Assembly (NCBI GenBank): GCA_036172665.1
Contig: CM069872.1
Location: forward strand, 22,795,001-22,859,000
Length of the DNA stretch: 64,000 nucleotides
Direction of reading: 5' to 3'
From: Prosopocoilus inquinatus
Taxonomy: Eukaryota > Arthropoda > Insecta > Coleoptera > Lucanidae
Each line of letters begins with the position of its first letter. Position 1 is the first letter of the stretch. Below are positions 15,461 through 61,719 of the stretch, one piece after another. The notes below the pieces were generated by a model that saw only the letters and a program-made list of their open reading frames with translations, made no database searches and was not told the origin of the DNA. Made by a program: the position numbers and the translations under genes.

Positions 15461-16632
15461 CCGTGCCTTCAATTGAATTCCTCATTAAAGTAAGCTGTGA
15501 TTTTTTTATGAAGTTGGCGACACAATTCTAGAGAAAACAGTTGTCATTAACAGTCAGTACTGATCATAACATCAAATAAAAACACAACATTAAAGTTTAA
15601 AGTAGATGCTCAAAGTGCTCTGCTTCAGCTTGAATACATAAGAGTACTCTGCGTTTCATGTTTTCAAACCCGTTTGCTAAGTGTTCGGGGATTATGTTAG
15701 CACACACATCTGTAATGCCCGCAAGTTCTTCGATTGTGTGACGCGTAGTTCTAAACACTGTGTTTTTCATGTGCGGATAAATGAAGTAATCCATAATTGT
15801 GAGATCCGGAGAGCTTGCAGGAAATTCACAATTCGATTATCGAAAAACTGCTGCAGGAAAGTCATTGTTTGATGAGCTGTGTGGGCAGTAGCATTGTCTT
15901 GCTGAAAAAACCCTTCTGTAAGTTCATCATCATGTAGTTGATTAATGAAAGCTTTTAATAACTCATTTCGGTATCTTTCAGCGGTTACTGAGTCGTTAAA
16001 AAATATTGGTCCGATGGTACGCCTTCTTGACACTGATGGCCAAACACCAATTTTTAATGGATGTAATGGAGTATCCACAAATTCATGGGGATTTTCTGCT
16101 GACCATATTCTCATATTCTGTTTATTTAAATACCCTGAGAGATGAAACCAGGCCTCATCGGAAAAGAAACACTTGTCAAGTATGTCGTCGTTGTTTAAGT
16201 TATCAAGAAACCACTGACAATACTCTATTCTTCTGTGAAAATCTACAGGCCTGAGTTCGTGGACTGCTTGAATCTTATATGGATAAAGCTTTAAGTCTCT
16301 TTTAAGAATAGTGTGACATGTTCCCACTGATAGCTGAACTTCTTGTGAAAGATTCGCAATAGATTTCTTGGGAGAGTGTTGCAATCGATCCCGAACATCT
16401 TCAATGCAGGCTGCTAACTGTCCATTTTCTATTCTACCGGTTTGAAAATAACTTTCAACAATAAATATTTTCTGCTGTAATTCTAACATTTTGAATTAAT
16501 TGAAAATACAAAGTGTCAATTTGACATTTGTTTAATTAAATAATTGAACAGCTATCAGTGCTGCAAATCTTAGGAGAAAAAAACAGTGAAATCATAAATC
16601 CACTTTAATGAGGAATTCAATTGAAGGCACGG
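15461..16632 (-). mobile_element. Mariner-type element, copy 1
   Basis: Ends CCGTGCCTTCAATTGAATTC and its inverse are flanked by TA (15459-15460 and 16633-16634). The interior carries a minus-strand transposase. The same element occurs at 56399-57704. This copy is 134 bp shorter because of an internal deletion near the transposase N-terminus. Confidence 0.93.
15600..16489 (-). pseudogene. Mariner-type transposase, copy 1 (deleted and frameshifted)
   Basis: The start at 16489 gives the conserved N-terminal opening (LELQQKIFIVESYFQTG). It then jumps directly to AACIEDVRDR, so most of the first DNA-binding helix-turn-helix domain, about 45 codons present in copy 2, is missing. The catalytic region keeps FFSDEAWFHLSGY and FFQQDNATAH. 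A frameshift after DNRIVNF near 15830 moves the rest, including the third aspartate, into another frame (SPDLTIMDYF-like). The C-terminus HFEHLL is visible near 15600. The product would cut and paste the element at TA sites. It is inactive. Confidence 0.88.
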
Positions 16633-18996: not shown

Positions 18997-19423
18997 CGCT
19001 AATTTCTTCAATCGTAATTTCACAATTGGAGCATGTAAGCATGACACGCTTAGGCCTAGTACATACATACTTGAATACAAAGTCGCGCAACTTTGTTTCA
19101 CAATCATGTTTCAGGATTGTTTCGCGATTGTTTGGAAACAGTTGCTAGACAAAATGTGATGTACCTCGAGTGTTCGGAGACAAAAATTGCAGAATTTTTG
19201 TTTCCCATTTCAAATGGGAAACTTGAGAAAAAAAGACGAAGGTCACAAATTCGATAAATCTCGCTTACAATCAATCACCTTCGTATTTTATCGACTCTAC
19301 TGTGTTTTTTTTTAATTATGTGGTCACAAAAAAAACTAAAGATTTCCGTGGTGTAGCTTGCTTATAGCTTTGTAGGACGTCTTTTTAGTAGAGTATAAAA
19401 ATCGAATAAAAAAATAGATATAT

Positions 19424-20094
19424 AGGATGTTATCGAATAAGATGGCAATAATTATACCACGTATAGACCACAATAAAATATTACAATTTAATCTAATTTA
19501 TCTATATATAAAACTTTTTCGTTTCTGACGTACAACCTCCTAAAGAGGTAACTTGAAAAGAATATTTTCTCAAATATCTCTGGAACGGTTTGAGGTAGAC
19601 CGTTAAAATTTGACAGTATAAGCAAAATACAGGGATGGATATATCATAAGGAAAATTGAGCGTTCTTTACCAGTGGCGTAGATCCGGGGAAGTAGGTTAT
19701 CATTTTAGTAAATAAGTTTCTTATTGTCACTTTTTAAAGAAAACTGAAACAAAAATTGAAAAGTACGAATAAAATTGTACTAGAAACGAACAAGTTCTAT
19801 CTTAGTCAGATTAACCGTTTTCGAGATAATTAAGTCGAAAGATTTTATTGCAGCAAAAACTCGAAATTTCGAAGAGCTCTAACTTACCTTGAAAACATTA
19901 GATGGAATTTTATCTGCGTATTTTACATGTCAATGTGCTGTACTTAATTGTTGCGTAGTTCTTTTCTCAAGGTATGCTTTTCAAATTGCTTTTATAGGTT
20001 ATATCACTGAAACGAAAAAATTTTGTATATAGATAAATTAGGTTAAATCGTCTATTCGTGGTATAATTATTGCCATCATATTCGATAACACCCT
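19424..20094. mobile_element. MITE with about 100-bp inverted ends
   Basis: AGGATGTTATCGAATA at the left and the inverse of AGGGTGTTATCGAATA at the right begin long arms that continue through GATGGCAATAATTATACCAC and TTTATCTATATA. The centre is unlike any protein. The exact ends and target duplication are uncertain. Confidence 0.7.
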
Positions 20095-20459
20095 GCAGAA
20101 GATTTAATAAAAAATACAAAATTGTAATTTCTGAAGTTGAAAAAGATTTATGACTTTAAAACCCAACTTCGCCGAGAAAATAAATAGTTCTATGTTTTGC
20201 TTTTCTTTTATTTTTAATTTTTTTGTGGGCATCAAGCAGCGATGCTACAGGCAGCAATTGCAATATCGCTGACCATGACAGTGCACGCACCAAAGGTTGA
20301 GGTTTGAATGACCGCAGCTTGTCATACCAGACCACGAAATTTAAAGCAAAATGACGTAAGCTCTTTTGACTCTATTGTTTAGAAATCGAGAAAAACTATT
20401 TTTGACACATTTGGTTTTTGATAAAATTTGATTATAACTGTTTATCTAATGCATTAATG

Positions 20460-20966
20460 AATAGCTTAAATAGCGACATCCTACGATTGCCTTTTTACCT
20501 AACATTGGTTTCAATTCGTCAATCTTAATGCAATTTGTTACATAATAAGTCATCCCAAGCAAGGCAGCCATGCTTGCTGACAAAGCATAACGAAAGTTAA
20601 AAAAAAATGTTGCAATTCGTTTTTGATTGTAGTGGATCCGCCAAGCATCCTCCGTACAGCTGTTTCAGCCTTAATTAGGGTTTCATCAGCAGAAGCGTAG
20701 CTCGAGAATTCCACCGTAAACCAAAACGACTTGTCAAAGGATATTCGCAAATGCAATGCCAGGTCAAAAAGCGATCGTAGGATGTCGTTATTTAGATATT
20801 CATTACTATTACATAGCATATACGAATATCCTTGGTCAAGTCGCTTTGCTTTGGAGTGGAACTCTCGAGTTACGCTTTTGCGAAGCCCTATATAGAACTG
20901 AAACAACAGTACAGAGGACGCTCGAAGCATTCACTGCAATCAAAAATGATTTGCAAAAAATTGGTT
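20460..20966. mobile_element. Hammerhead repeat (retrozyme-like), locus 1
   Basis: The 507-bp insert is flanked by TAATGCATTAATG on both sides (20447-20459 and 20967-20979). It starts with the family's 5' end (AATAGCGACATCC) and ends with TGATTTGCAAAAAATTGGTT. It consists of an antisense part followed by a sense part, so it can fold back on itself. The antisense part holds a hammerhead motif at 20641-20705; the sense hammerhead (about 20860-20935) has lost its CTGANGA box. Confidence 0.85.
20641..20705 (-). ncRNA. Hammerhead ribozyme motif (CUGAUGA form)
   Basis: On the minus strand CTGATGA is followed by an imperfect helix II, GAAA, a CAGCTG helix III and GTA as the cleavage triplet, so cutting would fall between plus positions 20655 and 20654. 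Helix I can pair CTTCTG with CGGAGG, counting wobble pairs. Helix II has a mismatch. It is the only copy with the canonical CTGATGA box. Confidence 0.65.
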
Positions 20967-21441
20967 TAATGCATTAATGTTAGTGGTTGTCTTTTTACTA
21001 TTCTAATACGCTTCAAACAAGAAATATTGGGAAAAATTGCCATTAATTTATTTAAAACTAAAAACAAAAAAAAAACGCAAATCTATCGGATATAAGTAAC
21101 TAAATTTCTATTCACTTAACACTCAAATGGTAAAAATTATATTAATTATTGCGTTCAGCGCTGTCATTTAATGGTAAATTTCCAATTTTATAGAAAATGT
21201 CGCTTATGTCGTTTTGCATTGAACGTACATACATCCGGATAGGTAGGCTAAATGTTTATTTCGAATCGATTTCAGATTGGTTCTTTCAAAAAAAACAACC
21301 AATCAAAAACAATCAGCAAGAAATATTTTGCGTATACAGAACTCAGCATAAGCGTGGACATGCAATAATGTATAGAAACAGTTTCGATATTTTGACGCGC
21401 AACAATGTTTCGCGATTGTTGCGCGACTTTGTATCTAAGTA

Positions 21442-23161
21442 AAATGCGTTCAATTAAATCCGTTATCGAGATGGCTTGGAACTTGCTTTTATTTTATACC
21501 GGCACGTCGTAGCTTAGTACGTATATTGAATAACTGCGAACTGTCAGCGGTGTTTACTGTCAAAGGTTTTGTTTACATTTTCGAGGTATTGTGTTCCGTT
21601 ATTTGTGTTGTCGCTTTAATTCCATTAAAAAACAGTTCTTTTGGCTTATGTCAAATGCAAATTTTACGAAGTCGCGTTAACTTAAGCCACATGATTATAA
21701 TAAACATAACCCAACTTTTTATACCCATTTATGATTTTCTATAAATTGAATAAGCGAATGCAATTAACGAAAACATTTATTTTTTACAAAAGGTGCTTAA
21801 AATGCCCACCACCTACTTCATAACATTTTAAAACTCTACGTTTAAGGGAACTCACGACTACATTTTCTAACAAGTTCGGATTTTGATTAATTTCTTCAAA
21901 TTTTTGCCTTATTCGGTGCTGTAGTTCTTCTAGATTGTTCATAGGGGTTGCAAATATTGAATTTTTAAGGTAAGGCCATATAAAATAATCACAAGGTATT
22001 AAATCGCACGACCTCGAAGGAAATGGTGTTGGAGTGTTGCGACTTATAATTCGGTCATCATAAAATTCATGAAGCATGGCCAATGTTTCTGCTGTACAGT
22101 GGGGTGTTGCACCATCTTGTTGAAAGTAACCACCTTCTAACTCATCATCGTGAACGTTCTCCAAAAATTCATTTAAAATTTCATTTCGGTATCTTGTTGC
22201 ATTAAGCGTACCTAAAAATTAACATGCGAATATAAGTTTAAAGATTATTTTTATGATTTATATATTTATAAACACCTTCAAAGAAAATTGGTCCAATTAA
22301 TCGTCTGCCACTTATAGCGGCCCATACACCAATTTTTTCAGGATGCAATGGACGTTCAACAAACATATGAGGATTATCTGAATTCCAAGATCTCATATTC
22401 TGCGAATTTACATATCCAGACAAATAGAACCACGATTCATCAGTAAAGAAAGTCATCCGTAGGGTATCGTCATCATTATTTAAAGTGTTTATAAACCATT
22501 GGCAAAATTCTAACCTCTGCGGTATATCAATGTCTTTCAATTCGTGAACTGCTGTTAGTCGATAAGGATATAAATGTAAATCCTTTCTTAACATCGCATG
22601 AGATTGTCCAACTGAAACTTCCATTTGTTGCGCTAATTGTCGAACAGTTGTTTTTGGGTTATTTTGCATGATTTCTCGTCCATCATCGATAACCTGTTGA
22701 CTTCGTTTAAGAGGACGACCAGAACCTTCCTTTCTTAAGACACCTCCAGTTTCACGAAATAGCGTAACACATCGATCCAGCGTAGCATTAAAATGGTTGT
22801 AGTCAATAATCAACTCCGGAAATTTAGCTCTGAACTCTTCTAAACAATCTGGTCTAGAATATACCCAATTGCCGTCAATTTTACGTCCATTTCGAAAATA
22901 CGATTCTAACATAAACACTCTATGTTCAGTAGTAAACATTTCTCGGCAGTTTAGTTCCCAAAAGAACTGTTTTTTTAAAGGAATTAAAGCAACAACACAA
23001 ATAACGGTACACAATACTTCGAAAATGTAAACAAAACCTTTGACAGTAAACACCGCTGACAGTTCGCAGTTATTCAATATACGTACTAAGCTACGACATG
23101 CCGGTATAAAATAAAAGCAAGTTCAAAGCCATCTCGATAACGGATTTAATTGAACGCATTT
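21442..23161 (-). mobile_element. Mariner-type DNA transposon with 205-bp inverted repeats
   Basis: Inverted repeats of about 205 bp (21442-21646 and 22958-23161) begin AAATGCGTTCAATTAAATCC. TA flanks both sides (21440-21441 and 23162-23163). It carries a nearly intact transposase on the minus strand. The two long repeats are almost identical, so the insertion is fairly recent. It sits in the right inverted repeat of the Harbinger-like element. Confidence 0.95.
21784..22939 (-). CDS. Mariner-type transposase, DD41D spacing, with one small intron
   Basis: The start chosen is the ATG at 22937-22939 (MFTTEHRVF), which matches the conserved N-terminus; the frame is open further upstream only because it reads through the inverted repeat. 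An intron is proposed at 22275 to 22212 (64 nt, GTGTTT to TTTTTAG). Splicing joins FFEG to TLNATRYR in frame and gives 363 residues without a stop. Domains: N-terminal helix-turn-helix with RETGGVLRKEGSGRP, a second helix-turn-helix (VRQLAQQMEVSVGQ), then the catalytic aspartates in FFTDESWF, FFQQDGATPH and PCDYFIWPYL. The last two aspartates are separated by 41 residues. The C-terminus is GGGHFKHLL. This is the best transposase in the window and may be functional. Confidence 0.88.
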
Positions 23162-23730: not shown

Positions 23731-23766
23731 TAATTTATCGTTCTCTTACAAAATGATATAATTTGT

Positions 23767-24290
23767 TGAAAATATAAAATAGCGACATCTTACTATCGCT
23801 TTTTGACCTAACATTGCAGATATAATTTGTAATGAACAGATAAAATAGCGACATCTTACGATCGCTTCTTGACCTGACATTGCAGTAGGATAGACAAATT
23901 GAAGCGGGATTTGCTCCTAATAAGTCCTCCATGCAAGGCGGCCATGCTTGCTGTCAAAGCATAATAAAAGTTTTTTAAAAAAATTTGTGCAAATCGTTTT
24001 TGATTGCAGTGAAAACCTCGAGCAGCCTCTGGACAGCTGTTTCAGCCCAAGCAGGCAATATCCTACTGCAATGTCAGGTCAAAAAGCGATCGTAAGATGT
24101 CACTATTTTATCTGTTCATCACTCTTACATCGCATTTGCGAATAAATTGGACAAGTCGTTTTTGTTTGCAGTGGGAATGTCGAGCTACTTCTCTTCTGAA
24201 GAAGCCCCAAGCAGGGCTGAAACAGCTGTCCAGAAACTGCTCGAGGTTTTCACTGCAATCAAAAACGATTTGGACAATTTTTTTTTAATA
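23767..24290. mobile_element. Hammerhead repeat (retrozyme-like), locus 2
   Basis: GATATAATTTGT flanks the insert at 23755-23766 and 24291-24302, and a third copy occurs inside at 23819-23830. The outer 52-bp piece and the main body both begin with the AAATAGCGACATCTTAC end, so two insertions at one site or a nested event are possible. The main body runs antisense, then sense, with the switch inside the hammerhead (about 24040). It ends GATTTGGACAATTTTTTTT. The sense hammerhead is at 24180-24246. Confidence 0.88.
24180..24246 (+). ncRNA. Hammerhead ribozyme motif, helix I weakened
   Basis: CTGAAGA, helix II AGCCC/GGGCT, GAAA, CAGCTG and the GTC cleavage triplet are all intact. Helix I next to the core is weaker than at 42863-42927 (CTCTT against CAGAA). 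The outer helix TCGAG/CTCGA is kept. Confidence 0.75.
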
Positions 24291-24465
24291 GATATAATTT
24301 GTAACGGATTGTTCACATGATCTTAGTGACTATTAAAATATAAGTTTGGAAAGTATTTTTGTTGATGAATTAATAAACAGCTTTTATATCGACTTTGGAA
24401 GCATTTTAGTAACTTAAGGCAAATAGTTTCCAAGCTTATATGACTTAATTTACTTTTCACAAATA

Positions 24466-26128: not shown

Positions 26129-26900
26129 GATCCGCTTCAATTTGTTATCCTACTGCAATGTCAGGTCAAAAAGCGATCGTAGGATGTCGCTGTTTTATTT
26201 ATTGACCACTATTACATCGCATTTGTGAATGAATTGGTCAAGTTCTTTTTGGTTTGCAGTGGGAATTTCGAGCTACGTCTCTGCTGACAAAACCCCAAGC
26301 AGGACTGAAACAACTGTTCAGAGGCTGCTCGAGGTTTTCACTGCAATCAAAAACGATTTGCAACAATTTTTTTTTAAACTTTCATTATGCTTTGACAGCA
26401 AGCATAGCCGCCTTGCATGGGGTAGCTTATTATGTAGCAAATCCGCCTCAATTTGTTATCCTACTGCAATGTCAGGTCAAAAAGCGTTCGTAGGATGTCG
26501 CTGTTTTATCTATTCAATAACAATTAACTAAGGTATACTCACTAAGGTACATGTATGGAAGTTCATCATATGACAACCAATGCTCAGTCAAGCAAACTAT
26601 TTCAGGATAGTATAGTTCATGCAATAGTCCTTCAAGATGAGCAGATTTAGATCTTGAACAGCGAATGTTTTAATATTAAAAGCTAAGGTATTTTTGTCAA
26701 TAACGTGTTCATTAGAAAATTCATATCAACAGGATTAATTTGTATGTAGTTGCTAAGGTTGAGATAATTATCCTCTCGCTCCTTCGGAATTGGTTGTACC
26801 CCCTTGTCCGTGGCTTCGCAATTGGTTTTCGTTAAATCTAAGCTGAACATGTGATTAAAAAGTAAAGGATTAATGTTTCTTTTTTTCCTCAATTTTAGAT
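24630..26900 (-). pseudogene. Non-LTR retrotransposon (LINE) remnant, copy A
   Basis: Minus-strand pieces give an endonuclease N-terminus at about 26530-26900 (SFAVQDLN-like, then IVCLTEHWLSYDELP across frames). Next come reverse transcriptase at about 25550-25960 (FFDLSKAFD, GVPQGS, YADDTNVI) and a C-terminal tail at 24890-25200. The 3' end is an (ATT)n tract at about 24635-24655. The 25968-26518 block, a direct repeat and a hammerhead repeat, splits the endonuclease from the RT. Many frame breaks. It is APE-type (Jockey/CR1-like) by motif; the clade is not certain. Confidence 0.75.
26120..26518 (+). mobile_element. Hammerhead repeat (retrozyme-like), locus 3
   Basis: A sense-oriented head-to-tail array of about 1.3 monomers. 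TACTGCAATGTCAGGTCAAA recurs at about 26151 and 26462, a period of 311 bp. The hammerhead at about 26268-26335 is degenerate (CTGACAA instead of CTGAAGA, GTT before the cut). The right end is TCGCTGTTTTATCTATTC. The left boundary is ragged and I could not establish a target duplication. It interrupts the endonuclease of LINE copy A. Confidence 0.8.
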
Positions 26901-27947
26901 GAATTCCTTCCCACGTGTAGTCTTTTACAGAAATAACGGTATTTACGCAAAAAATAAAACATTTACATGATCGTAATTATTAGCCAGATCGTATATTTTA
27001 TTATTATGATTATTATTATTTTACAGGCCAAGTCCTTCCTTAGTTCCCAGTATTGATCTATAATTGGTGTGTTCAGAAATTCAATGTAATTGTTGGTTAC
27101 TTGTTTATTATTGTAAATAGCCCGTTTTATTTCTAAAACTTCGAGTAAGCTTAATTTTTTGCTTTTTTGTACATGGTGTAATAATTTACAGTCATCTATA
27201 TCGAAGAAGTGGTTGTTATCAATGCAATGTTCTGCGAATCCGAAGTTCTTGATATACGCTTGATTGCTTTTTATGCTCATCTAATCTAGTTTTTCGTTTT
27301 CTACCACTTTGTGCGATATAGGTCGCTTCACAGTTTATTTGATAGACACCTGTTTTTTCTAACTTTGTAGTCTTTTGTTTGTTGTTGACAAGCATAGTAC
27401 CGAGATTGCCTTTATTCACACTGACTATTTTGAGGTCTATTTGTTTTAGAGTTGAGGTGTCTTTGTTATTGAAAGGTGCAAAGTAATTTATATAATGCCA
27501 AGTTTTATTGGGGTCATTATTATTTACTGCTTGATAAAATTGTTGTTTTAGTAACTTTTTTTGTTTATTTTTAATCATTTTGTCTATTAAACTTCCTTTA
27601 TATCCGTAATTTTTCGCAGTGGCTTTGATTGTTTGTATTTTTGTTTGGAAATTTTGTTCACTTAGTGGTATGTTAAACAGTCTGTGTGTGTAACTGTGGA
27701 AGGCTACCAATTTTATTTTCCAATTTTGATTAGATTTTGCGTGTAGGATAGTGTCTGTGTACGTGGGTTTTCTGTAAATGCTATACGATAGTTTATTGTT
27801 ATCTCGTGCGATGGTTAAATCTAAGAAGTTTAGTTCTTTGTCTTTTTCTAATTCCATTGTGAATTCTATTTTATTATTTATTGCATTTAGTTGTGTCAGG
27901 AATTCGTTTATTTGTCTTTCTGTTCCTCGCCAGACGCAGAAAATATC

Positions 27948-28074
27948 ATTTAAAAAAAAAATTGTGCAAATCGTTTTTGGTTGCAGTGAAAATCTCGAGC
28001 AGCTTCTGTACAGCTGTTTCAGCCCTGCAATGTCAGGTCAAAAAGCGATCGTAAGATATCGCTATTTTATCTGG
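27948..28074. mobile_element. Hammerhead repeat (retrozyme-like), locus 4
   Basis: A 127-bp insert with AGAAAATATC on both sides (27938-27947 and 28075-28084). Read on the minus strand it has the standard 5' end (AGATAAAATAGCGATATC) and 3' end (CGATTTGCACAA followed by a T tract). In between is only half a hammerhead (CAGCTG, cleavage triplet and the 3' strand of helix I). Removing it with one AGAAAATATC restores the PLE frame after YVDDIF, which proves the boundaries. Confidence 0.92.
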
Positions 28075-28447
28075 AGAAAATATCGTCGACATACCTAGCC
28101 CAAAATTGTACGTGTTTGATATGTTTATGATTACTATTGAAAAGTTTTTCTTCGAAATCATAAAAATTTCCATTAGCAGAGGGCTTAGTGGACTCTCCAT
28201 AGGTAAGCCGTTGATTTGTGTGTAAAACCTTTCTTGGAATTTGAAATAATTCTGTTGTATACTTATAATTAGCACTTCCGGGAAGAGCTGTTTTTTCCGT
28301 TCGTCGGTTTTACTATTGTTGATTTTTTCAATTAATATGCTCTTTAATTTATCTGTAGGTATCGAGGTAAATAGGCTTTTAACGTCAAAAGAGATTAATT
28401 TACATTATTAGGTATTTTGATAACTTCTAGCTTCTTAAGCACTAAAA

Positions 28448-28640
28448 AATGTCTAAAAAAAACCTAATCACACTGACAAAATCATAAAAATGTTTTTAGA
28501 CATTTTTTAGTGCTTTTAAGTTGGTAACGTACTGAAGATGGGAGCTTAGCTGCTGAAATACGTATCTACGGATATAAAAATTATTGTGGGCGGAGGTTAA
28601 TTTCAATTATCTCTTAAACCACAGTCTCCTTTACTATTTT
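28448..28640 (+). mobile_element. PLE-type hammerhead unit inside the PLE RT
   Basis: About 150 bp of this segment recurs in inverted orientation at 30085-30275, yet the flanks are unrelated (PLE RT here, a MITE there), so the unit moves independently. It carries a hammerhead core and an inverted repeat (GCACTAAAAAATGTCTAAAA at 28439 and its inverse at 28493-28513). PLE coding sequence resumes on both sides (LNNELLQTIELQLK and LKKLEVIKIPNN). Confidence 0.7.
28521..28582 (+). ncRNA. Hammerhead ribozyme motif, PLE class, copy 1
   Basis: CTGAAGA (28532-28538), helix II GGGAGC/GCTGCT with one mismatch and loop TTA, GAAA (28555-28558), a tiny TACGTA helix III, then TC. Cleavage would fall between 28566 and 28567. 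CGTA before the core pairs with TACG after the cut. A very short helix III is known for PLE hammerheads, which are thought to need dimers. Confidence 0.7.
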
Positions 28641-29265
28641 AGTTGAAGTTCTATAGTTTGCAATAGTTCATTATTCAGATATTTGCATAGTTTGTAGGCT
28701 GGAGCGTTTATGTATGAAACAATAGGGCGTATGGGTGTATTTTCTTTATGCAATTTAGTTTGTCCGTAGAGAACTGGAGCACTGGGATTCACTAAGTGCA
28801 GTTTTTTGGTTTTAGTCTCGGGAAAGTTTTTTGTTAGTTTTTTGATGTCTTGTTGGTATCTGTTTGTGGGATCCGTTTTTAGTATTTTGAATTCCTCTGA
28901 GGCAAGTAAATCGTTAATCTTCTCAACATATTCAGCTTTGTTTATTATGGTTACAGTGTTACCTTTATCAGCTTTGCAAGTGATAAGGTTATCGTTATGT
29001 ATTTTATCTTTAATGGATTTGATAGTGTGTTTTTCTTTAATGGAGTTAATAAAGTGAATTTTGTTTTTATGTTTTCTAATGTACGTTATGATCTGTTGTT
29101 TTTCTAAATTTTTGTTTTGTGCTGAAGGCTGCTGCTATGTTAACAAATTGTCTAAGTCTCTTTGTGTGTGTATATTTGGACAATGTTTGAATCCTTTCTC
29201 TAAAAGTTGTGTTTCTGTTTGGGTAAAACTTATGTTTGTTAAGTTAATTACTCTTGGGTAAAAGG

Positions 29266-31809: not shown

Positions 31810-32172
31810 GACGAACTTCGAGTTAGAAATGGATTCAAGGGTTTATTATTGAGTTGCATTATCTGGTAAGGTCTGATTAATTAATTTCTAATATATTATG
31901 ACATATTACATGAGGAATGAATGAATCAGGCCTCACCAGATGATTCAACTCAATAATAAACCCTTAAAAAAAATTTGTGCAAATCGTTTTTGATTGCAGT
32001 GAAAACCTCGAGCAGCCTTGCATGGCGGACTTATTAGGACTTAGTAGGAGCAAATCCCGCTTCAATTTGTCTATCCTACTGCAATGTCAGGTCGAAAAGT
32101 GATCGTAAGATGTCGCTGTGTTATCTGTTCAATAAACCCTTAATTCCATGTCTAACTCGAAGCTCGTCGTTT
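31810..32172. mobile_element. MITE with about 80-bp inverted ends
   Basis: ACGAACTTCGAGTTAGA at the left is inverted at the right (TCTAACTCGAAGCTCGTC). The arms continue through AAGGGTTTATT and ATTGAGTTG to CATCTGGTGAGGCCTGATT. The right arm is broken by the retrozyme at 31968-32130. Confidence 0.8.
31968..32130. mobile_element. Hammerhead repeat (retrozyme-like), locus 5
   Basis: A 163-bp insert with AATAAACCCTTAA on both sides (31955-31967 and 32131-32143). Read on the minus strand it begins GAACAGATAACACAGCGACA and ends CGATTTGCACAAATTTTTTT, the standard ends. The hammerhead is nearly all deleted; only CTCGAG with part of helix I remains. The intact MITE arm on the other side confirms the empty site. 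Confidence 0.92.
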
Positions 32173-34320: not shown

Positions 34321-34323
34321 TCT

Positions 34324-34943
34324 GCATCATATATAAGGTAGGTGAGTTTTCAGTTGCTTGTACATTCAGCAATGACAATATTTCATTGCCTGTTTCTGTT
34401 AGGATGTTGTCTAAAATTTCTTTCATTGTCTCTTTCTGTTAGGACGTAGTCTGAAATAAGTGGATCTTCACGAGTTCCTTGCATATGGACTTTTTAATGT
34501 GCTCATTTTTTGTTTCATCACCTTCTTGCAGTTTAAAAGCTAGTATTTCATTCTATTCCACTAGTTCATTGCTCTAGTGACGCAATACGGCTGTACTAGT
34601 GCCCATCAACCAATTTATATTCGAATGTTCAATGCATCATATATAAGGTAGGTGAGTTTTCAGTTGCTTGTACATTCAGCAATGACAATATTTCATTGCC
34701 TGTTTCTGTTAGGATGTTGTCTAAAATTTCTTTCATTGTCTCTTTCTGTTAGGACGTAGTCTGAAATAAATGGATCTTCACGAGTTCCTTGCATATGGAC
34801 TTTTTAATGTGCTCATTTTTTGTTTCATCACCTTCTTGCAGTTTAAAAGCTAGTATTTCATTCTATTCCACTAGTTCATTGCTCTAGTGACGCAATACGG
34901 CTGTACTAGTGCCCATCAACCAATTTATATTCGAATGTTCAAT
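34324..34943 (+). repeat. Near-perfect tandem duplication, 2 x 310 bp
   Basis: GCATCATATATAAGGTAGGT starts at 34324 and again at 34634. Nearly every base of the 310-bp units is the same; the one difference I noticed is AAGTGG against AAATGG. Each unit also contains a partial internal repeat of TTTCTGTTAGGAYGT. The near-identity means the duplication is recent, or an assembly artefact. Confidence 0.92.
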
Positions 34944-35369
34944 GCATTTTATCTCAAAAACTATGGATATTAGACCTCCTATGCATATAGACTTTTTTGT
35001 TTTCTTTTTCTGTGTACGACCGGCGGGTGATGGTTCGGACTCTTATTCTGAGTCACCCAGTATAATTAATATTTTTTCTTTGAAAAAAAAATGAAGTTAT
35101 TCTGAAACTGAAGTGTCTAATTCTTAACACTTACTTTTTTTTACTTAAAAGTGCTACTTCAAGGATATTTAGAAAACGGTCTCTTTGATTTTTTGCTATT
35201 CTTAAATGGTTTTATCATTATTTCCGGTTATTTCGCTTTCAGTTCTATTTTCTTCTTACTCTGCATTTAGTGGCTGTGTGACTCTCATTAAAGGAATCCT
35301 GTAAATTTGTGGGATTTGTTTTGTTTTCGCTAATCACGACATTCGTCAATATTTGCCGAGTCGACGTTG

Positions 35370-40723: not shown

Positions 40724-42629
40724 GTATGTATTCGTTTATCTATTATAAGATAAAATCTTGGTGACAATTTAAATCTGATGAAAATAGGACTATCTTTTTG
40801 TACTCTCCTCTAAAAATCAATTGTATATGAATCTAATTTATTTAAAATGTTGATAGTTAACTCAGATGACAAGATTTTTTGTGTAATATAATTAAAAAAA
40901 AGTATAGGACCTAAAATTGAGCCCCAATATTGATACAATGGTACTGTTTGAAAAACCCCTTTTTAGAAGTCACCTGTTTATTAAGTTCTATTTTGCGCCT
41001 CTATTTTTATTACGTTAAAAATAATTTTTTGTAATCGTCTCCATCGAAAATTAATTGGATTTTTATAACGCAAATGACCTCATGCCTCGCTTTAGTTACC
41101 TCGCTTCTTTAACCGTTTCTTAGAATACACCGGCCATAAAAGATGGTATAAGTCTCGCTGTTTCGGTATTTGTTTTAGTACTTTAAATAAACAATATCGC
41201 CCGGAGTTTTTATTTTTAGATATGATTGCGTCAAGCGTTATAGTGAATTTTCCGAACTTTGCATGAGAACAGATTGAATGTTTATTTTAAGACATCTAGG
41301 CGGTCATAAATTTCCGGCAGTGTCTGTTTTTGCTGCGTGAGGTCTTGAGAATTACAACTTTTTGTACGTGAATTATTTCAACGGAAAGGTTAAATTGCGT
41401 TCACCTTAATATTTCATGCCATTGGTATGTCTTCCTTACGTCAGCTGCTATTTCGTTGGCTCTTAATGCTGTCACGATGTTTTCGTTTCCTTACTTCGAT
41501 AGGGATACAGCCAATTTTGGCTTTATTAATTTGTAACCCGCTTGGATCAAGTCAGTCCTCTTGTTGTTGGTTGCTGGTTGTTGTTTGAGGGGGACTTGCC
41601 CTAATTTTACGGTGTGTTCGTTTAAGAGACCGCGCACAATTTTGGGTTCTTGTAAAATAATCTTGGTTTCCTTAGTATACCACTTGTTGTCGGTTTTGAT
41701 GTGGCACTGGCGGACTAAAACTCATCCAAGTTGTTGATTAAAATGGCCGCTGACAAATACTTAATCATTTTTAATATAATTACTATCTAGTATATCTTTT
41801 AAAATGTCAATAAATATTAACTGGTCACGAACAGGCGGTTTATACCTACGGACAAACAAGTAAAAATGTTTTATCTAAAACAAAAACAGTAAACCTGTTG
41901 GAATTTGAGCCTTATTGAAATAGCCTGTCTGAATTTGGAACCTTCTGCACTTGATCCTCCCCGTTTCTCTCTCCCTCTCTTGACCAGGGGATGAGCAGGG
42001 TCATAAAATTCATTCACGAGAGTAGGTAATCTGTTAAGCATAGAATAAGAATTCCAGGTAAGGAGAACTGCTTAATTTGTAATGTATTATGACAGTTGTT
42101 ATTAATAAAATTAATTCAGATATAGTTATATTTTGTGAAGTCGTGTTTAGTTTCTTAATTGTTTTTAGTTTAATGTTAATAAAAATAATAATAATACCTA
42201 CCCGGTTTTGTTATATTCAGTATTTTTTATAATTCAATTTAGATTTTCATATTTAAATTGTTAACAAAATTGATAGGTATTAAATCGAAATGTTTTAAAC
42301 TGCCATAAGTTCGGAAAGAGTTTAAATTTAAATTTAAGTTTGAACGTGTTATTGTTGTTGAATAATAAATAAACGAAGTGATCAGAAAAAGAAAATACTT
42401 CTTATGTTTCATATGTTGCAATTTAAAATTGCCAATGCTAATTTAGATCAAACTATTATTCAGTCAAACAAAACGAGAAAGAGTAACAAAGTTGTTTTTA
42501 TGACACATTAATTTTTAATTAGACTTATGGCCGTTTTCATAATCAGACATTAAGGAAGCGTTAAGTCAATTTAAGAATAGGGAAACAAATGTATTTTTTT
42601 TTTAGGTTAAAATAACTTTAAATTTAAAG

Positions 42630-42966
42630 AACATATAAAATAGCGACATCTTACTATCAGATGACGCTTTTTGACCTAACATTGCAGTAGGATAGACAAA
42701 TTGAAGCGGGATTTGCTCCTAATGAGTCCCCCATGCAAGGCGGCCATGCTTGCTGTCAAAGCATAATGAAAGATTTTAGAAAAATTTTGTGCAAATCGTT
42801 TTTGATTGCAGTGAGAACCTCGAGCAGCCTCTGGACAGCTGTTTCCCACTGCAGTGGGAATGTCGAGCTACGTCTCTGCTGAAGAAGCCCCAAGCAGGGC
42901 TGAAACAGCTGTCCAGAGGCTGCTCGAGGTTCTCACTGCAATCAAAAACGATTTGCACAAAAATTT
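42630..42966 (+). mobile_element. Hammerhead repeat (retrozyme-like), locus 6, with the best ribozyme
   Basis: A 337-bp insert flanked by TTTAAATTTAAAG (42617-42629 and 42967-42979). It begins with ATAAAATAGCGACATCTTAC and ends CGATTTGCACAAAAATTTT. The first about 210 bp are antisense and carry half a hammerhead; at about 42847 the sequence turns to sense and carries a complete one. The turn point is CCACTGCAGTGG, a palindrome. Confidence 0.93.
42863..42927 (+). ncRNA. Type I hammerhead ribozyme, intact core
   Basis: All parts are in order. Helix I outer pair TCGAG/CTCGA, an internal loop (CTACGT/GCTG), and helix I inner pair CTCTG/CAGAG. Then CTGAAGA (42879-42885), helix II AGCCC/GGGCT with loop CAAGCA, GAAA (42902-42905), a short CAGCTG helix III and the cleavage triplet GTC. 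The cut is predicted between 42913 and 42914. The helix I loops could give the tertiary contact of natural hammerheads. Helix III is very short and palindromic, so a dimer may be the active form. Confidence 0.88.
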
Positions 42967-42979
42967 TTTAAATTTAAAG

Positions 42980-49089: not shown

Positions 49090-49735
49090 TTGAACCAACT
49101 GCAAACAAAAACGACTTGTCCAATTTATTCGCAATTGCGATGTAAGAGTGATGAATAGATAAAATAGCGACATCTTACGATCGCTTTTTGACCTGACATT
49201 GCAGTAGGATAGACAAATTGAAGCGGGATTTGCTCCTAATAAGTCCCCCATGCAAGGCGGCCATGCTTGCTGTCAAAGCATAATGAAAGATTTTAGAAAA
49301 ATTTTGTGCAAATCGTTCTTGATTACAGTGAAAACCTCGAGCAGCCTCTGGACAGCTGTTTCAGCCCTGCTTGGGGTTTACTTCAGCAGAGACGTAGCTC
49401 GACATTCCCACTGCAAACAAAAACGACTTGTCCAATTTATTCGCAATTGCGATGTAAGAGTGATGAATAGATAAAATAGCGACATCTTACGATCGCTTTT
49501 TGACCTGACATTGCAGTAGGATAGACAAATTGAAGCGGGATTTGCTCCTAATAAGTTCCCCATGCAAGCCGCCCATGCTTGTTGTCAAAGCATAATGAAA
49601 GATTTTAGAAAAATTTTGTGCAAATCGTTCTTGATTGCAGTGAAAACCTCGAGCAGCCTCTGGACAGCTGAAGAAGCCCCAAGCAGGGCTGAGACAGCTG
49701 TCCAGAGGCTGCTCGAGATTTTGACTTACGGTGGG
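49090..49735 (-). mobile_element. Hammerhead repeat (retrozyme-like), locus 7: tandem array
   Basis: Antisense monomers head to tail: GCAAACAAAAACGACTTGTC recurs at 49101 and 49413, period 312 bp. Almost two monomers are followed by an inverted end (49670-49735) in which the hammerhead folds back. A hammerhead at 49336-49401 (minus) has CTGAAGT in place of CTGAAGA. The one at about 49664-49727 (plus) lacks the 5' strand of helix I and has GAGA for GAAA. The outer ends differ from the other loci and I found no target duplication. Confidence 0.88.
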
Positions 49736-56398: not shown

Positions 56399-57704
56399 CC
56401 GTGCCTTCAATTGAATTCCTCATTAAAGTAAGCTGTGATTTTTTTATGAAGTTGGCGACACAATTCTAGAGAAAACAGTTGTCATTAACTGTCAGTACTG
56501 ATCATAACATGAAATAAAAACACAATATTAAAATTTAAAGTAGATGCTCAAAGTGCTCTCCTTCAGCTTAAATACATAAGAGTACTCTGCGTTTCATGTT
56601 TTCAAACCCGTTTGCTAAGTGTTCGGGGGTTATGTTAGCACACACATCTGTAATGACCGCACGAAGTTCTTCGATTGTGTGACGCGTAGTTCTAAAAACT
56701 GTGTTTTTCATGTGCGGATAAATGAAGTAATCCATAATTGTGAGATCCGGAGATCTTGCAGGAAAATTCACAATCCGATTATCGAAAAACTGCTGCAGGA
56801 AAGTATTTGTTTGATGAGCTGTGTGTGCAGTAGCATTGTCTTGCTGAAAAAACCCTTCTGTAAGTTCATCATCACGTAGTTGACTAATGAAAGGTTTTAA
56901 TAACTCATTTCGGTATTTTTCAGCAGTTACTGAGTCGTTAAAAAATATTGGTCCGACTATACGCCTTCTTGACACTGCTAGCCAAACACCAATTTTTAAT
57001 GGATGTAATGGAGTTTCCACAAATTCATTGGGATTTTCTGCTGACCATATTCTCATATTCTGTATATTTAAATACCCTGAGAGATGAAACCAGGCCTCAT
57101 TGGAAAAGAAACACTTGTCAAGAATGTCGTCGTTGTTTAAGTTATCAAGAAACCACTGACAATATTCTGTTCTTCTGTGAAAATCTACTGGCCTGAGTTC
57201 GTGGACTGCTTGAATCTTATATGGATAAAGCTTTAAGTCTTTTTTAAGAATAGTGTGACATGTTCCCACTGATATCTGAACTTCTTGCGAAAGTTTCGCA
57301 ATAGATTTTTTGGGAGAGTGTTCCATTCGATCCCGAACATCTTCAATGCAGGCTGCAGTCCTTTTCTTAGCTGCTCCGCTCCCTGTTTTGCGACCAAGTG
57401 ATCCTGTTTCACGAAATTTAAGAACACAAGCATGGATGTATTTAACTAGCTGTTCATAAGTAATAGCAAAATTAAGAAACTGCTGTCGAAACTTCTGTAC
57501 ACACTGATTAATTGATTAAACTAACTGTCCCTTTTCTATTCTACCGGTTTGAAAATAACTTTCAACAATAAATATTTTCTGCTGTAATTCTAACATTTTG
57601 AATTAATTGAAAATACAAAGTGTCAATTTGAAATTTGTTTAATTAAATAATTGAACAGCTACAGTGCTGCAAATCTTTAATGAGGAATTCAATTGAAGGC
57701 ACGG
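56399..57704 (-). mobile_element. Mariner-type element, copy 2, in Copia RNase H
   Basis: Same ends as 15461-16632 (CCGTGCCTTCAATTGAATTC). TA flanks both sides (56397-56398 and 57705-57706). Removing it restores the Copia SGYT-FIMSG junction. 1306 bp, so it keeps the N-terminal part deleted in copy 1. Confidence 0.95.
56535..57596 (-). pseudogene. Mariner-type transposase, copy 2 (two premature stops)
   Basis: From the ATG at 57594-57596 the frame is kept over the whole gene, with a TAA at codon 27 and a second TAA near the end where copy 1 has CAA (CIQAEAEHF). The helix-turn-helix with FRETGSLGRKTGSG is present, then KLSQEVQISVGTCHT and the catalytic blocks FFSNEAWF, FFQQDNATAH and TIMDYFIYPH. 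The first catalytic aspartate is Asn here (SNEAW against SDEAW in copy 1). The last two aspartates are 35 residues apart. Confidence 0.9.
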
Positions 57705-57881: not shown

Positions 57882-58838
57882 ATGGCGCCAGGCGAGACAG
57901 CTGCAAAGTCGACAGCTCCTCACAAAGTGTGTAAACGTTGCAAAACAACAGCCCAAACGGGCCTTAAATGTGTAACGTGCGGTGTAATATCACATAATAG
58001 TTGCGTGGAGCTGCTAAAAAAAGAGAGAAATGTGTTAGTTATCGATAATAAGTTTATAAACTGTTGCAACGCGGAGCCCAAGGCTAGAGATGATACTCTC
58101 CACACTACGCATGTGCCTAGTTTGAGCAGTGTTGGTAATGTTGATAATCTGAATGCCAGCGCAGTTGAAATCTTGTATCTGAAGGAATTGCTTAAACAAA
58201 AAGATCTAATAATCTGTAACCAACAAGAAACCATAGTTTCGCTTAAACAACAAATTTTACTATTGAACGCATTCAACGATTCTGACAAAAGTAAGGCGAT
58301 TGTGATTAACAAAGTCGAATTAGGTAAGACAACTAATGACGCCAGTAATTCGGTGGATACGATTAATAAGCATGATCCAAAAAGTTACTCCAACTGCGAT
58401 ATACTCAATACCGATGTCCCAGCAACGACCAAGAAGGCAACCTCCTATGCATCTGTAACCGGCGAACGTACTGCAGTGCAACCTAAAGGAGGCAACTCTG
58501 ACAGGAAAACAAACAAACCGCAAAACACGCGCGTGTCAACCGGTACTAGTGAGTCTTCGATTAGTGGACTAAAAAGCGCTGAACGTTATGGTTATTTACA
58601 CGTTTTTAGACTTGATTCTTTGACTGATGTGCAAGTGTTACAAAAACATTTAAACTCATTTTCTCCTAGCGCTCGCTGTGAAAAATTGACGTCTAAACAT
58701 CCGGAGCAATACGCGTCTTTTAAAATCACCGCACCATTTTCAGATCTTGATAAAATTAAGAATCCAGAAATCTGGCCAGTTGGGGTTTGTATAAAGCGGT
58801 TTTTTCTCCCAGGAAGGCCGGGCAAGAGTACAAGATAA
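57882..58838 (+). CDS. LINE ORF1 protein
   Basis: 318 residues from the first ATG (MAPGETAAKS). A PHD-like zinc module near the N-terminus (CKRC, then CVTCGVISHNSC) follows the pattern CX2CX9CX2CX4HX2C. A coiled-coil stretch comes after it (YLKELLKQKDLIICNQQ) and a hydrophilic linker. The end has an RNA-recognition-like look (YGYLHVFRLDSL). ORF1 proteins of such LINEs bind the element RNA. No stop or frameshift. The end overlaps the ORF2 frame. Confidence 0.85.
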   Translation: MAPGETAAKSTAPHKVCKRCKTTAQTGLKCVTCGVISHNSCVELLKKERNVLVIDNKFINCCNAEPKARDDTLHTTHVPSLSSVGNVDNLNASAVEILYLKELLKQKDLIICNQQETIVSLKQQILLLNAFNDSDKSKAIVINKVELGKTTNDASNSVDTINKHDPKSYSNCDILNTDVPATTKKATSYASVTGERTAVQPKGGNSDRKTNKPQNTRVSTGTSESSISGLKSAERYGYLHVFRLDSLTDVQVLQKHLNSFSPSARCEKLTSKHPEQYASFKITAPFSDLDKIKNPEIWPVGVCIKRFFLPGRPGKSTR

Positions 58839-58839
58839 T

Positions 58840-61719
58840 CTGAAACAAAGTAAGTTAAAAATCATACATGTTAATGTACAAGGTTTAGGCAATAAACTGG
58901 ATCCTCTTCAAACATTCTTACACGAAGAAATGCCTGATATCCTATGTGTATCTGAACATTGGTATTCCAGTGACACTTCAAATGAAATTTCAGTGGACAA
59001 GTATGCCTTAGCGGCAAGTTACTGTCGTCAAACTCACGGAAGGGGAGGTGTCGCGATTTTTGTAAATAAATCATTGAACATTATCGCTAGTGAAATCTTT
59101 GAAATTAAACAATTTTCACTCGAAAAATGTTGCGAATATTGTGCCACGCAATTTGTATTGGACGGACTTCGTGTATGTCTGGTAGCTGCATACCGCTCTC
59201 CGGACGGATCTTTTGATTCATTTGCAGAATCAATTACAGAAGTTCTCTTAATATCTAGTCGCTATGATATAATTCTTATCTGCGGTGACATGAATGTCAA
59301 TGTTCTTAATTCTACCTACCAAACATTGGCATTGATGGACATACTAAGCTCTTTCAACTTGCATATCACCACTGCTGAGCCAACTCGTATACAAATCAAC
59401 AAGAATGGAACAGTAACCTCTACAGCGATTGATTATATGATTGTTAATCTTGATAATACCAAGTATGAATGTTCTGTGATTGACCCTAATTTAGCTGATC
59501 ATCTGGCCCATAGACTTCTAATATATCTTGGTCCTGATCGATATAATGAACCACCACTAAAGACCAAATTCCGGCGTATTAATAAATATAGTCTTGATGA
59601 TATACGCAGGAATTTGTTATTGGAGGACTGGCAGGCCGTTTACCAACATGACGAAATAAATGCCGCGTTTACTGATCTTATAAATACTGTAGAGTGGTAT
59701 TTTAATGTTGCGTGTCCGCTTCGAGAATCAACATCAAAAAAGAAGTCAACAAACATGCAATTTGTTAGTCCACAAATATTGAAAGCAGGGCAGGAGTTGA
59801 GAGAATTCTATCAATTGGTTCGTGCTACGGGATGCCCGCAATTACTAGATGCCTATAGACTAAAAAAACGACACTATAGGCAATTAATCCTACAGACCAA
59901 AAGACAAAATGTTAATGATCAGATAAACCGGACGCATAACACAAGCAAAGGTTTGTGGAATGTCGTTAACAGAGTCACTGGCCGTACAAATAAAGATACG
60001 GCACAGTTACCAACATTATGTATTGATGGAGAAACTTTGGCTGATCCGTTAGCGATTTCAGAGAAATTTTCTGAACATTTTTCTAGTGTAGCAAAGAATA
60101 TGCTCATAACTCATTTACAGCAGAACCTTTCGACCGATTGTACGCTGACACCTAGCGTCCAACAATCGATTTATTTTCCCGAAATTACTGTTTATGAAGT
60201 ATTAAGCGCTATTAAAACCTTGAAACTCTGCAATCCTTCTGGTATAAATGGGCTACCAACATGTATAATAAAACAAAATATGGACGTTTTGGCGCCACCT
60301 CTGACACACCTCTACAATCTATCTGTTAAACAGTGTACTTTTCCTGATATTTTAAAATCGTCAACCGTAATACCCATTTTCAAAAATAAAGGCAACAGAT
60401 CTGATATCTTAAATTACCGACCAATAACGATTATTAATGACTTCTCCAAGATATTTGAAAAAATTATATATCAAAGAATCTATAGTTACCTAGAACATTT
60501 TAACTTGTTTTCTGACACATAACATGGCTTCCGTAAAGGTATGTCGACCGCTAATGCATGTATAGAGTTTTCTGAATACGTCTACAATGCTCTCGACAGC
60601 AATAAGCTAGTTGCGGCTATCTACTTTGATCTCAGTCGAGCATTTGACTCGGTGCAAATTGATTTTCTAATCCACAAACTGTACGCACTTGGCATTAGGG
60701 GCAAGCTGTTGGACTGGCTGATGTCTTACCTCACAGATAGGACAATTGTGGTGAACTTGCGTGGCCAGTTATCGTCTAATCAGGTAATGGAGTTAGGTGT
60801 TCCTCAGGGGTCCGTACTAGGACCCCTGTTATTTTTGATATTTATTAATGACCTGGTCGAAAATCTTCATACATCGGGCAAGCGAGTGTCATTTGCCGAC
60901 GATGCAACAGTTTTACTGGCCTGTGATGATGTCGCTGATTTGGAGATGGGTTTGAACAATATTGCCTCACAGTTTAGCACCTGGTGTAAGAGAAACAACC
61001 TAATACTAAACTGCGATAAAACTATTAGAGTAAACTTCTACAAACGAAGACTTGTGCCGGACATGAATGTGCGACTAATGGGCGATACCATAGATGTCTC
61101 GGACAGTACGTCCTTACTTGGTGTCACACTGGACAGCAGCCTATCTTGGAATCTCCAAATTGATAAAGTATGCAAGAAGGTCAACAGCGCTTATTTTGCA
61201 ATCCTTAAAATGAAGCCATATATTGACAGAATCTACCTACTTCAATTATACTTTGGACTAGTCCACTCTGTTCTTTCCTACTGTTGTGAACTCTGGGGTA
61301 ACGCCAGCAGTGCGAGAAGGGCATTTGTAGCACAGAAAAGAGTTATAAGGTTGATCTTTGATATAAAACGTCGAGACACATGTAGAAATACGTTCATTGA
61401 ATCCAAAATATTGACACTGGCGTCAATTCACATATACCGTTGCGTCCTATACATCGTCAACAACAAGACTAAGTTTGCGACTAATCGTGATATCCACGGC
61501 CGCGAAACTAGATTTGCTGATTGTTTCAGTACGCTTCCACACAGTACGACAACATACGAGAAATCGCCAATTTATTCCGGATTAAAGTACTTCAATAAGC
61601 TGCCCCAGGACTTGCAGAGAATCACTGACCGCAGTAGTTTCAAAGTACAACTGAAGAAGTTTCTACAAGTTAATGCCTACTACACAGTAACCGAGTTTCT
61701 TAACAGCTCAAATGTTTAA
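58840..61719 (+). pseudogene. LINE ORF2: endonuclease and reverse transcriptase, one stop
   Basis: The frame begins around 58840 (IIHVNVQGLGNKLDPLQTF). The APE-like nuclease shows CVSEHWYSS, GRGGVAIFV, CGDMNVN and LADHLAHR. RT has YRPITIINDFSKIFEKIIYQ, HGFRKGMST, DLSRAFDSV, GVPQGSVLGPLLFL and the active site FADDATVLLA. The C-terminus runs to a TAA at 61717-61719. The only lesion I see is a TAA at about 60520, before HGFRKG, where a Gln codon is expected. Catalytic aspartates are present. Confidence 0.88.

Follow-up and report, generated by a model that had tools for sequence, protein, structure and literature searches.

A hammerhead-bearing 312-bp repeat of the beetle Prosopocoilus inquinatus and the Penelope-like layout of its insertions

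A stretch of 64,000 nucleotides of the Prosopocoilus inquinatus genome (assembly GCA_036172665.1, contig CM069872.1; hereafter the window) contains a short repeat with a hammerhead ribozyme, which raises the question of what kind of element the repeat is and how its copies enter new sites. A sequence-only reading of the window had described a dispersed 312-bp family with seven loci, had noted every element of a type I hammerhead within the repeat, and had proposed a retrozyme candidate. The period of 312 bp is borne out by a 1.8-copy tandem at 49098-49670, and BLAST matches in the window do group into seven loci, of which one passes a descriptor of the intact ribozyme. Positions on the monomer are given here on H, the ribozyme-sense monomer, which is the reverse complement of window positions 49098-49409. 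The features of the window are collected in Table 1.

The repeat family and its ribozyme

All elements of a type I hammerhead are present at 42863-42927 on the forward strand, as judged from the sequence and a list of its pairs. The structural descriptor, which requires CTGANGA and GAAA, a U-H cut site, and a minimum of 4 pairs in helix II (one mismatch being tolerated), 2 in helix III and 5 in inner helix I, has a single match on the two strands of the window, as against a mean of 0.03 matches per window in 100 mononucleotide shuffles, and it too places the predicted cut after position 42913. The two sequence checks that had been suggested for the ribozyme, a covariance-model search and a look for compensatory changes, each gave a divided result. 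Rfam model RF00163 aligns significantly at 42873-42919 when 111 bases are searched (25.8 bits, E 9.8e-5), but below its gathering score of 34. It was absent from two scans of the whole window, of which the one at the gathering score returned nothing and the one at E up to 10 returned sub-threshold microRNA and snoRNA matches and one sRNA match, and it was not found by Rfam at E up to 1 in the young copy L026 (1,241 bases). Pairing is retained in most cells of a comparison of 64 unique copies, but two-sided changes are few, most being one-sided, and 13 of the 64 have A-C at one of the helix II pairs. On sequence and predicted pairing, the hammerhead observation at 42863-42927 is confirmed. The short arm at 49667-49726 is a hairpin and is the source of the sub-threshold microRNA matches.

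The genome assembly that was searched comprises 650 Mb in 173 contigs. A UDP-glycosyltransferase fragment of the window has 333 relatives, and among the 120 listed, those given with a species name are from beetles. The assembly contains 12,040 exact copies of the ribozyme core pattern (5,975 forward and 6,065 reverse) and no match to the pattern read backwards; scans of viral contigs gave no match to the core and none to the sequence of site A (defined below). Two samples of the family were drawn. One is a set of 32 loci from the best matches of the repeat unit (the 40 best of 1,501 candidates scored), thus chosen by similarity, which together with the window were mapped on H and yielded 58 segment clusters. 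The other is the first 100 of the 12,040 core matches, taken in genome order and not by similarity, which were used for counts of orientation only. Of 157 full-length copies from the window and the 32 loci chosen by similarity, 146 have an intact core. Among units of 19 elements that cover the position, the base before the predicted cut is C in 66 and A in 14, and never G or T. The core diverges less (0.006) than the remaining monomer (0.029), but not significantly so (resampling, P 0.10; rank test, P 0.14).

Table 1. Features of the repeat family, its ribozyme and a Penelope-like element in the window (sites A and B are positions on the monomer H; see text)
Feature	Position	Strand	Details
Full retrozyme insertion	42629..42972		anti-ribozyme arm 42629-42845 from site A; ribozyme-sense arm 42850-42972 to site B
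Target-site duplication of 42629-42972, 12 bp, left copy	42618..42629		
Target-site duplication of 42629-42972, 12 bp, right copy	42968..42979		
Type I hammerhead ribozyme, complete	42863..42927	+	sequence, pair list, Rfam RF00163, structural descriptor
Outer helix I	42863-42868/42922-42927	+	one part of the two-part helix I
Inner helix I	42873-42878/42914-42919	+	internal loop between both helix I parts
CTGAAGA core box	42879-42885	+	
Helix II, 5 bp	42886-42890/42897-42901	+	
GAAA core box	42902-42905	+	
Helix III, 2-3 bp	42905-42906/42911-42912	+	
Predicted self-cleavage site, H17 = C42913	42913..42914	+	by descriptor
Tandem copy and short inverted arm (49667-49726)	49095..49726		period 312 bp; mutated ribozyme core, on minus strand
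Short B-A insertion, 10-bp target-site duplication	27948..28072		within reverse-transcriptase frame of Penelope-like element
B-A insertion, 13-bp target-site duplication	31964..32131		sits in hairpin repeat (hairpin judged by eye)
A-B insertion (23829-24288) and adjoining 56-bp A-end fragment (23764-23819)	23764..24288		
Old A-B copy (76-77% identity with the 49098 unit)	20457..20962		inside amplified larger repeat, about 19049-21441
Single-orientation copy, ribozyme-sense, one end at site A	26132..26516	+	
Degraded Penelope-like element, interrupted by insertion 27948-28072	27219..29134	-	ORFs; RVT_1 below cut-off

Layout of the insertions

The more informative feature, absent from the sequence-only reading, is the build of the insertions: they are inverted composites, joined head-to-head, whose two outer ends are fixed. 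A typical insertion consists of an anti-ribozyme arm followed by a ribozyme-sense arm, and its outer ends lie at monomer positions A (about H 251-265) and B (about H 110-124), with a spacing of about 140 nt. When end classes were scored with H 240-270 for A and 106-132 for B (the B end of L034 maps at 129), the 58 clusters comprised 26 A-B, one A-A (L022), two B-B, 14 with one such end and 15 with none; one or both ends are thus missing in 29 of the 58. Twelve of the 15 clusters without an A or B end are internal pieces of a single long array, L035-L036 (G000:C1, about 22602500-22615985), which spans at least about 13.5 kb and in which the anti-ribozyme arm comes first and the ribozyme-sense arm second. 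Of the B-B cases, L024 arose by a later palindromic duplication (99.6% identity) that took in the flank, and L019 looks like two adjacent pieces. L013, filed as one-ended, has a 12-nt B arm beside its duplication.

The anti-ribozyme arm precedes the ribozyme-sense arm in 30 of 31 two-segment clusters; the single cluster in reverse order (L029 83-505), in which a B end abuts an A end, reads as two neighbouring elements. Adjacent segments over all clusters are '-+' in 38 cases, '++' in 3, '+-' in 3 and '--' in 2. Neighbours within 1.5 kb at the first 100 core positions are '-+' in 17 cases, '--' in 5, '++' in one and '+-' in none, and extension to 3 kb gives 19, 5, one and one, respectively. The stretch L034 1639-4125 consists of six segments, anti-sense and sense in alternation, whose joints recur, which suggests that the template was switched several times or that the locus was rearranged later.

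Direct repeats of 8-13 bp were found near the ends of 21 of the 25 A-B elements away from locus edges (the old copy at 20457 included), and 67 of 2000 random pairs reach 8 bp. The A-B elements without a direct repeat are L015, L016 (1253), L017 and L034; one repeat copy lies 9-14 bp off the mapped end in L025, L031 (2043) and L037. The AT content of the repeats (18 of the 21, with those of the one-ended copies L013 and L032) is 81%, as against 65% in the window.

Individual loci of the window add to this picture. The insertion at 27948-28072 interrupts the reverse-transcriptase frame of a Penelope-like element (PLE), and when its flanks are rejoined at the 10-bp duplication the frame is restored (...RYVDDIFCVWRG..., YVDD motif included). 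The tandem copy at 49095-49726 ends at neither site A nor site B and has no clear duplication, and a short palindrome lies at the arm junction of the 42629 copy. An 11-12 bp direct repeat is present three times at 23764-24300, flanking a fragment with an A end only and then a full element; diagnostic positions differ (by eye) between 23764-23819 and 23829-24288, so the same site may have been hit twice, or one event may have been aborted. The larger repeat around the old copy (19049-21441) yielded 5,797 first-look candidates in the genome, of which the 40 best were scored and are nearly full-length. Elsewhere in the window, a 310-bp tandem duplication (two copies, 99%) at 34323-34947 has no BLAST match to the retrozyme unit, and three long minus-strand ORFs (15767-16495, 21784-23122 and 56568-57515) have by eye the look of mariner-like transposases; a profile search with ORF 22238-23122 gave a DUF4817 HTH match just under the cut-off.

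The arms also carry information on the template. Among the 60 arms of 30 two-arm elements, 49 pass the predicted cut site, and inner arm ends show no departure from a uniform distribution on the monomer (KS P 0.18); thus, the template is not usually a linear monomer that begins at the cut. Arms longer than one monomer (312 nt) number 38 of 60. The two inner ends of an element are separated on the monomer by more than 10 nt in 29 of the 30 and by more than 20 nt in 26, which argues against snap-back copying. Junction overlaps of 1-7 bp were found in 20 of the 30 elements and one of 16 bp in another, and nine have none. Private variants are common to both arms of an element in 174 of 266 cases; when arms were re-paired among 19 elements (the old copy at 20457 and elements with an arm shorter than about 120 nt being left out), sharing had a mean of 0.21 and a maximum of 0.44 in 2000 trials. 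The two arms were thus copied from a single RNA, or else from several RNAs with the same source.

Circular folds were predicted for the 23 natural monomers of 310-312 nt in the 32 loci, and helix II is present in all 23. The mean predicted unpaired probability in these folds is 0.72 at site A (n=21) and 0.75 at site B (n=22), as against 0.35 overall, which places the two sites at the 94th-95th percentile of windows for unpairedness; their AT-richness may contribute. The predicted circular energy of one monomer is -110.4, as against -74.7 (s.d. 5.1) in 100 dinucleotide shuffles.

Penelope-like elements, a LINE control and the route of insertion

Homologues of the degraded PLE at 27219-29134 carry RVT_1 and GIY-YIG domains. 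Its reverse-transcriptase fragment (27219-28037) has at least 144 matches in the genome (the best 142 of 24,582 candidates were scored), which merge into 135 copies, and among these scored copies all 20 neighbours within 6 kb are head-to-head '-+'. Five PLE pairs from two families, picked because they are paired, proved to be near-perfect palindromes (96.9-99.9%). In each of the five, exactly one outer end has an extra tail of 37-47 bp and the other end is untailed, and duplications of 12-14 bp are present (in L075 by eye, the script having chosen another repeat there). RVT_1 and GIY-YIG were found on both arms of L075, and GIY-YIG on the one arm of L073 that was tested. By eye, no end in nine PLE loci (L071-L079) resembles A or B, and no hammerhead was found by Rfam at E up to 1 in five PLE loci. 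In the five PLE loci searched for the retrozyme, long matches occur only at L071 1-711, and the PLE arms of L071 begin at 1127.

The control was a LINE-type reverse transcriptase at 60523-61719, of which the upstream frame (58795-60522) has an endonuclease domain. It has at least 104 matches (the best 104 of 11,869 candidates were scored), giving 103 copies of the family and its relatives, and among these scored copies there is no '-+' neighbour within 6 kb and one '++' neighbour. Copies in '-+' pairs therefore number 40 of 135 for PLEs versus 0 of 103 for LINEs (Fisher P 9e-12 if copies are independent). As far as genomic copies can tell, the insertion fingerprint of the retrozyme is that of the co-resident PLEs, not of the LINE examined. 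Since the mirrored layout with two start sites is common to the retrozyme and the PLEs, it points to the PLE enzyme as the copier.

By the sequence features tested, the repeat is a metazoan non-LTR retrozyme, and the earlier proposal of a retrozyme is supported. It has a canonical type I hammerhead with a two-part helix I and a short helix III; its 312-bp monomer falls within about 170-400 nt and occurs in short tandems, from dimers to multimers and arrays; its copies are dispersed with target-site duplications of more than 4 bp (8-13 bp in 21 of 25); and PLEs co-exist with it in the genome. The repeat contains no coding region for a reverse transcriptase and GIY-YIG, for which a 312-bp monomer is too short, and it is therefore not filed as a PLE. 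Its insertions are nevertheless of the Penelope type in layout, with inverted arms and one end per start site (26 A-B of 58 clusters, and all five PLE pairs).

Arm layout, preferred ends, duplications, template polarity, passage of the cut site and the matching PLE layout are features of the DNA itself, and a model was built on them. Ribozyme-sense RNA would be transcribed from genomic copies, and the hammerhead would presumably cut the transcripts to 312-nt monomers, which would be closed to circles. A Penelope-like protein with reverse transcriptase and GIY-YIG endonuclease, the putative helper, would make staggered cuts in AT-rich DNA. Both target strands would then prime on the same RNA at RNA-internal positions, one at site A and one at site B, and each cDNA would be extended along the circle, in many cases for more than one full turn, up to the joining of the two. 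This would leave two inverted arms, head to head, between duplications of 8-13 bp. We hold it to be quite probable that the retrozyme is copied in this manner, by a PLE reverse transcriptase from both target strands on circular hammerhead RNA, a single model that accounts for the main features. Against the model stand the spacing of A and B, about 140 nt as compared with 37-47 nt between the two PLE ends, the A-A element and the 29 clusters in which one or both ends are missing, the lack of A- or B-like ends in the nine PLE loci, the sub-threshold Rfam score, the few two-sided pair changes, and the choice of retrozyme loci by similarity and of PLE loci by pairing. Long linear multimers may instead have served as template, and arrays may have grown after insertion.

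Other routes have to account for the same layout. A LINE might have moved the retrozyme, the inversions arising by ordinary twin priming of the L1 type: LINEs exist in the genome, and twin priming also yields duplications of 8-13 bp and short junction overlaps, such as the 1-7 bp overlaps seen in 20 of 30 elements. This explanation is already strained, because two-segment clusters are inverted as a rule (30 of 31), with a second start at a preferred site other than the first (26 A-B against one A-A and two B-B), no head-to-head neighbours within 6 kb occur among the 103 scored LINE copies, and no poly(A) tract was evident by eye at the retrozyme ends inspected; we consider it unlikely. Separation of the inner ends (more than 20 nt in 26 of 30 elements, more than 10 nt in 29) and the preferred outer end that the second arm has for itself make it very improbable that the first cDNA folds back and copies itself to give the inverted arm, even though such self-priming is offered in PMC3846280 as the cause of the inverted junctions of bdelloid PLEs, where junctions are palindromic, and a short palindrome is present where the arms of the 42629 copy meet.

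Two further explanations deny the repeat its independence as a mobile RNA. One takes it for a satellite that recombination of DNA or extrachromosomal circles have spread, its ribozyme having no part in this, and in favour of that reading there are tandem arrays of up to about 13.5 kb (L035-L036); dispersed copies with duplications and preferred ends, the restored empty site inside a PLE gene, and the polarity bias of the first 100 core positions (17 '-+' versus 0 '+-' within 1.5 kb) leave it scarcely credible. The repeat might instead be the pseudo-LTR of an autonomous PLE, given that its layout is PLE-like and that PLE pseudo-LTRs can contain hammerheads, as described in parts of PMC7229834 and PMC7761336. 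This is a most doubtful reading of a repeat that is found alone with its own ends and duplications, as no PLE end in L071-L079 matches A or B by eye, the long retrozyme matches in five PLE loci are confined to L071 1-711, outside the PLE arms, and no PLE copy bounded by the 312-bp unit was found among the PLE loci examined.

Copying of hammerhead RNA by a PLE enzyme thus remains the preferred explanation, and it has a broader form towards which we lean with rather less assurance: animal retrozymes may be parasites of PLEs, whose RNP would hold one circular hammerhead RNA at two fixed sites while both nicked strands prime, one per site, and two rolling-circle cDNAs meet head to head. If this is true, the two-site rule would mark PLE-driven mobilisation in genomic sequence, could be applied to any animal genome, and would show circular RNA to be the template of reverse transcription. 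The insertion layout links the retrozyme and PLE families structurally within one genome, with a LINE as control, and it is sequence-level evidence that the template is ribozyme-strand RNA, probably circular. Priming from two strands at two RNA sites is also suggested as the insertion route of the PLEs themselves in this genome.

Comparison with known systems

The beetle repeat resembles the metazoan non-LTR retrozymes described in the main text of Cervera and de la Pena (2020, PMC7229834) in its type I hammerhead, tandem monomers of about 300 bp, duplications of more than 4 bp and co-resident PLEs, and differs from them in host and sequence. The words inverted, inversion, head-to-head and orientation have no use in that main text, and two-ended inverted insertions are not mentioned in it. 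PLEs are proposed there, not demonstrated, as movers of animal retrozymes (a 'strong candidate'), and portions of a December 2024 review name LINEs or PLEs as possible movers (PMC11722881). No two-armed retrozyme was found in titles and abstract openings on retrozymes, hammerheads and PLEs, a scope beyond which most subscription papers and preprints lie. The pDo500 repeat of Dolichopoda cave crickets (PMC2837043) is likewise an insect repeat with a hammerhead; it differs in being described there as satellite DNA. Plant LTR retrozymes, as outlined in PMC4918200 and PMC7229834, are also non-autonomous, with a hammerhead and a circular RNA intermediate such as is presumed for the beetle retrozyme, but they differ in having type III hammerheads, LTRs and 4-bp duplications.

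The relevant passages on PLEs concern Anolis and bdelloid rotifers. The Anolis PLE protein is reported to cleave and extend both strands and to start reverse transcription at two RNA-internal sites (PMC11167929), which explain the PLE tail. Two results of the same study limit the model: the start site did not appear to be strand-dependent, and ribozyme mutants left insertion unaffected in vitro, with unprocessed RNA as the main substrate, so the enzyme may not need ribozyme processing. Bdelloid PLEs are described with inverted pseudo-LTRs (pLTRs), an optional tail on one of these, and duplications of 8-10 bp (PMC3846280). The beetle retrozyme differs from PLEs in being a 312-nt unit with a canonical hammerhead, with start sites about 140 nt apart where those of PLEs are separated by 37-47 nt. 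It is like them, as far as the accounts in PMC3846280 and PMC11167929 extend, in its inverted arms, one extra-tailed end and duplications within 8-14 bp, and in the internal initiation of reverse transcription and the cutting and extension of both strands that are presumed for it.
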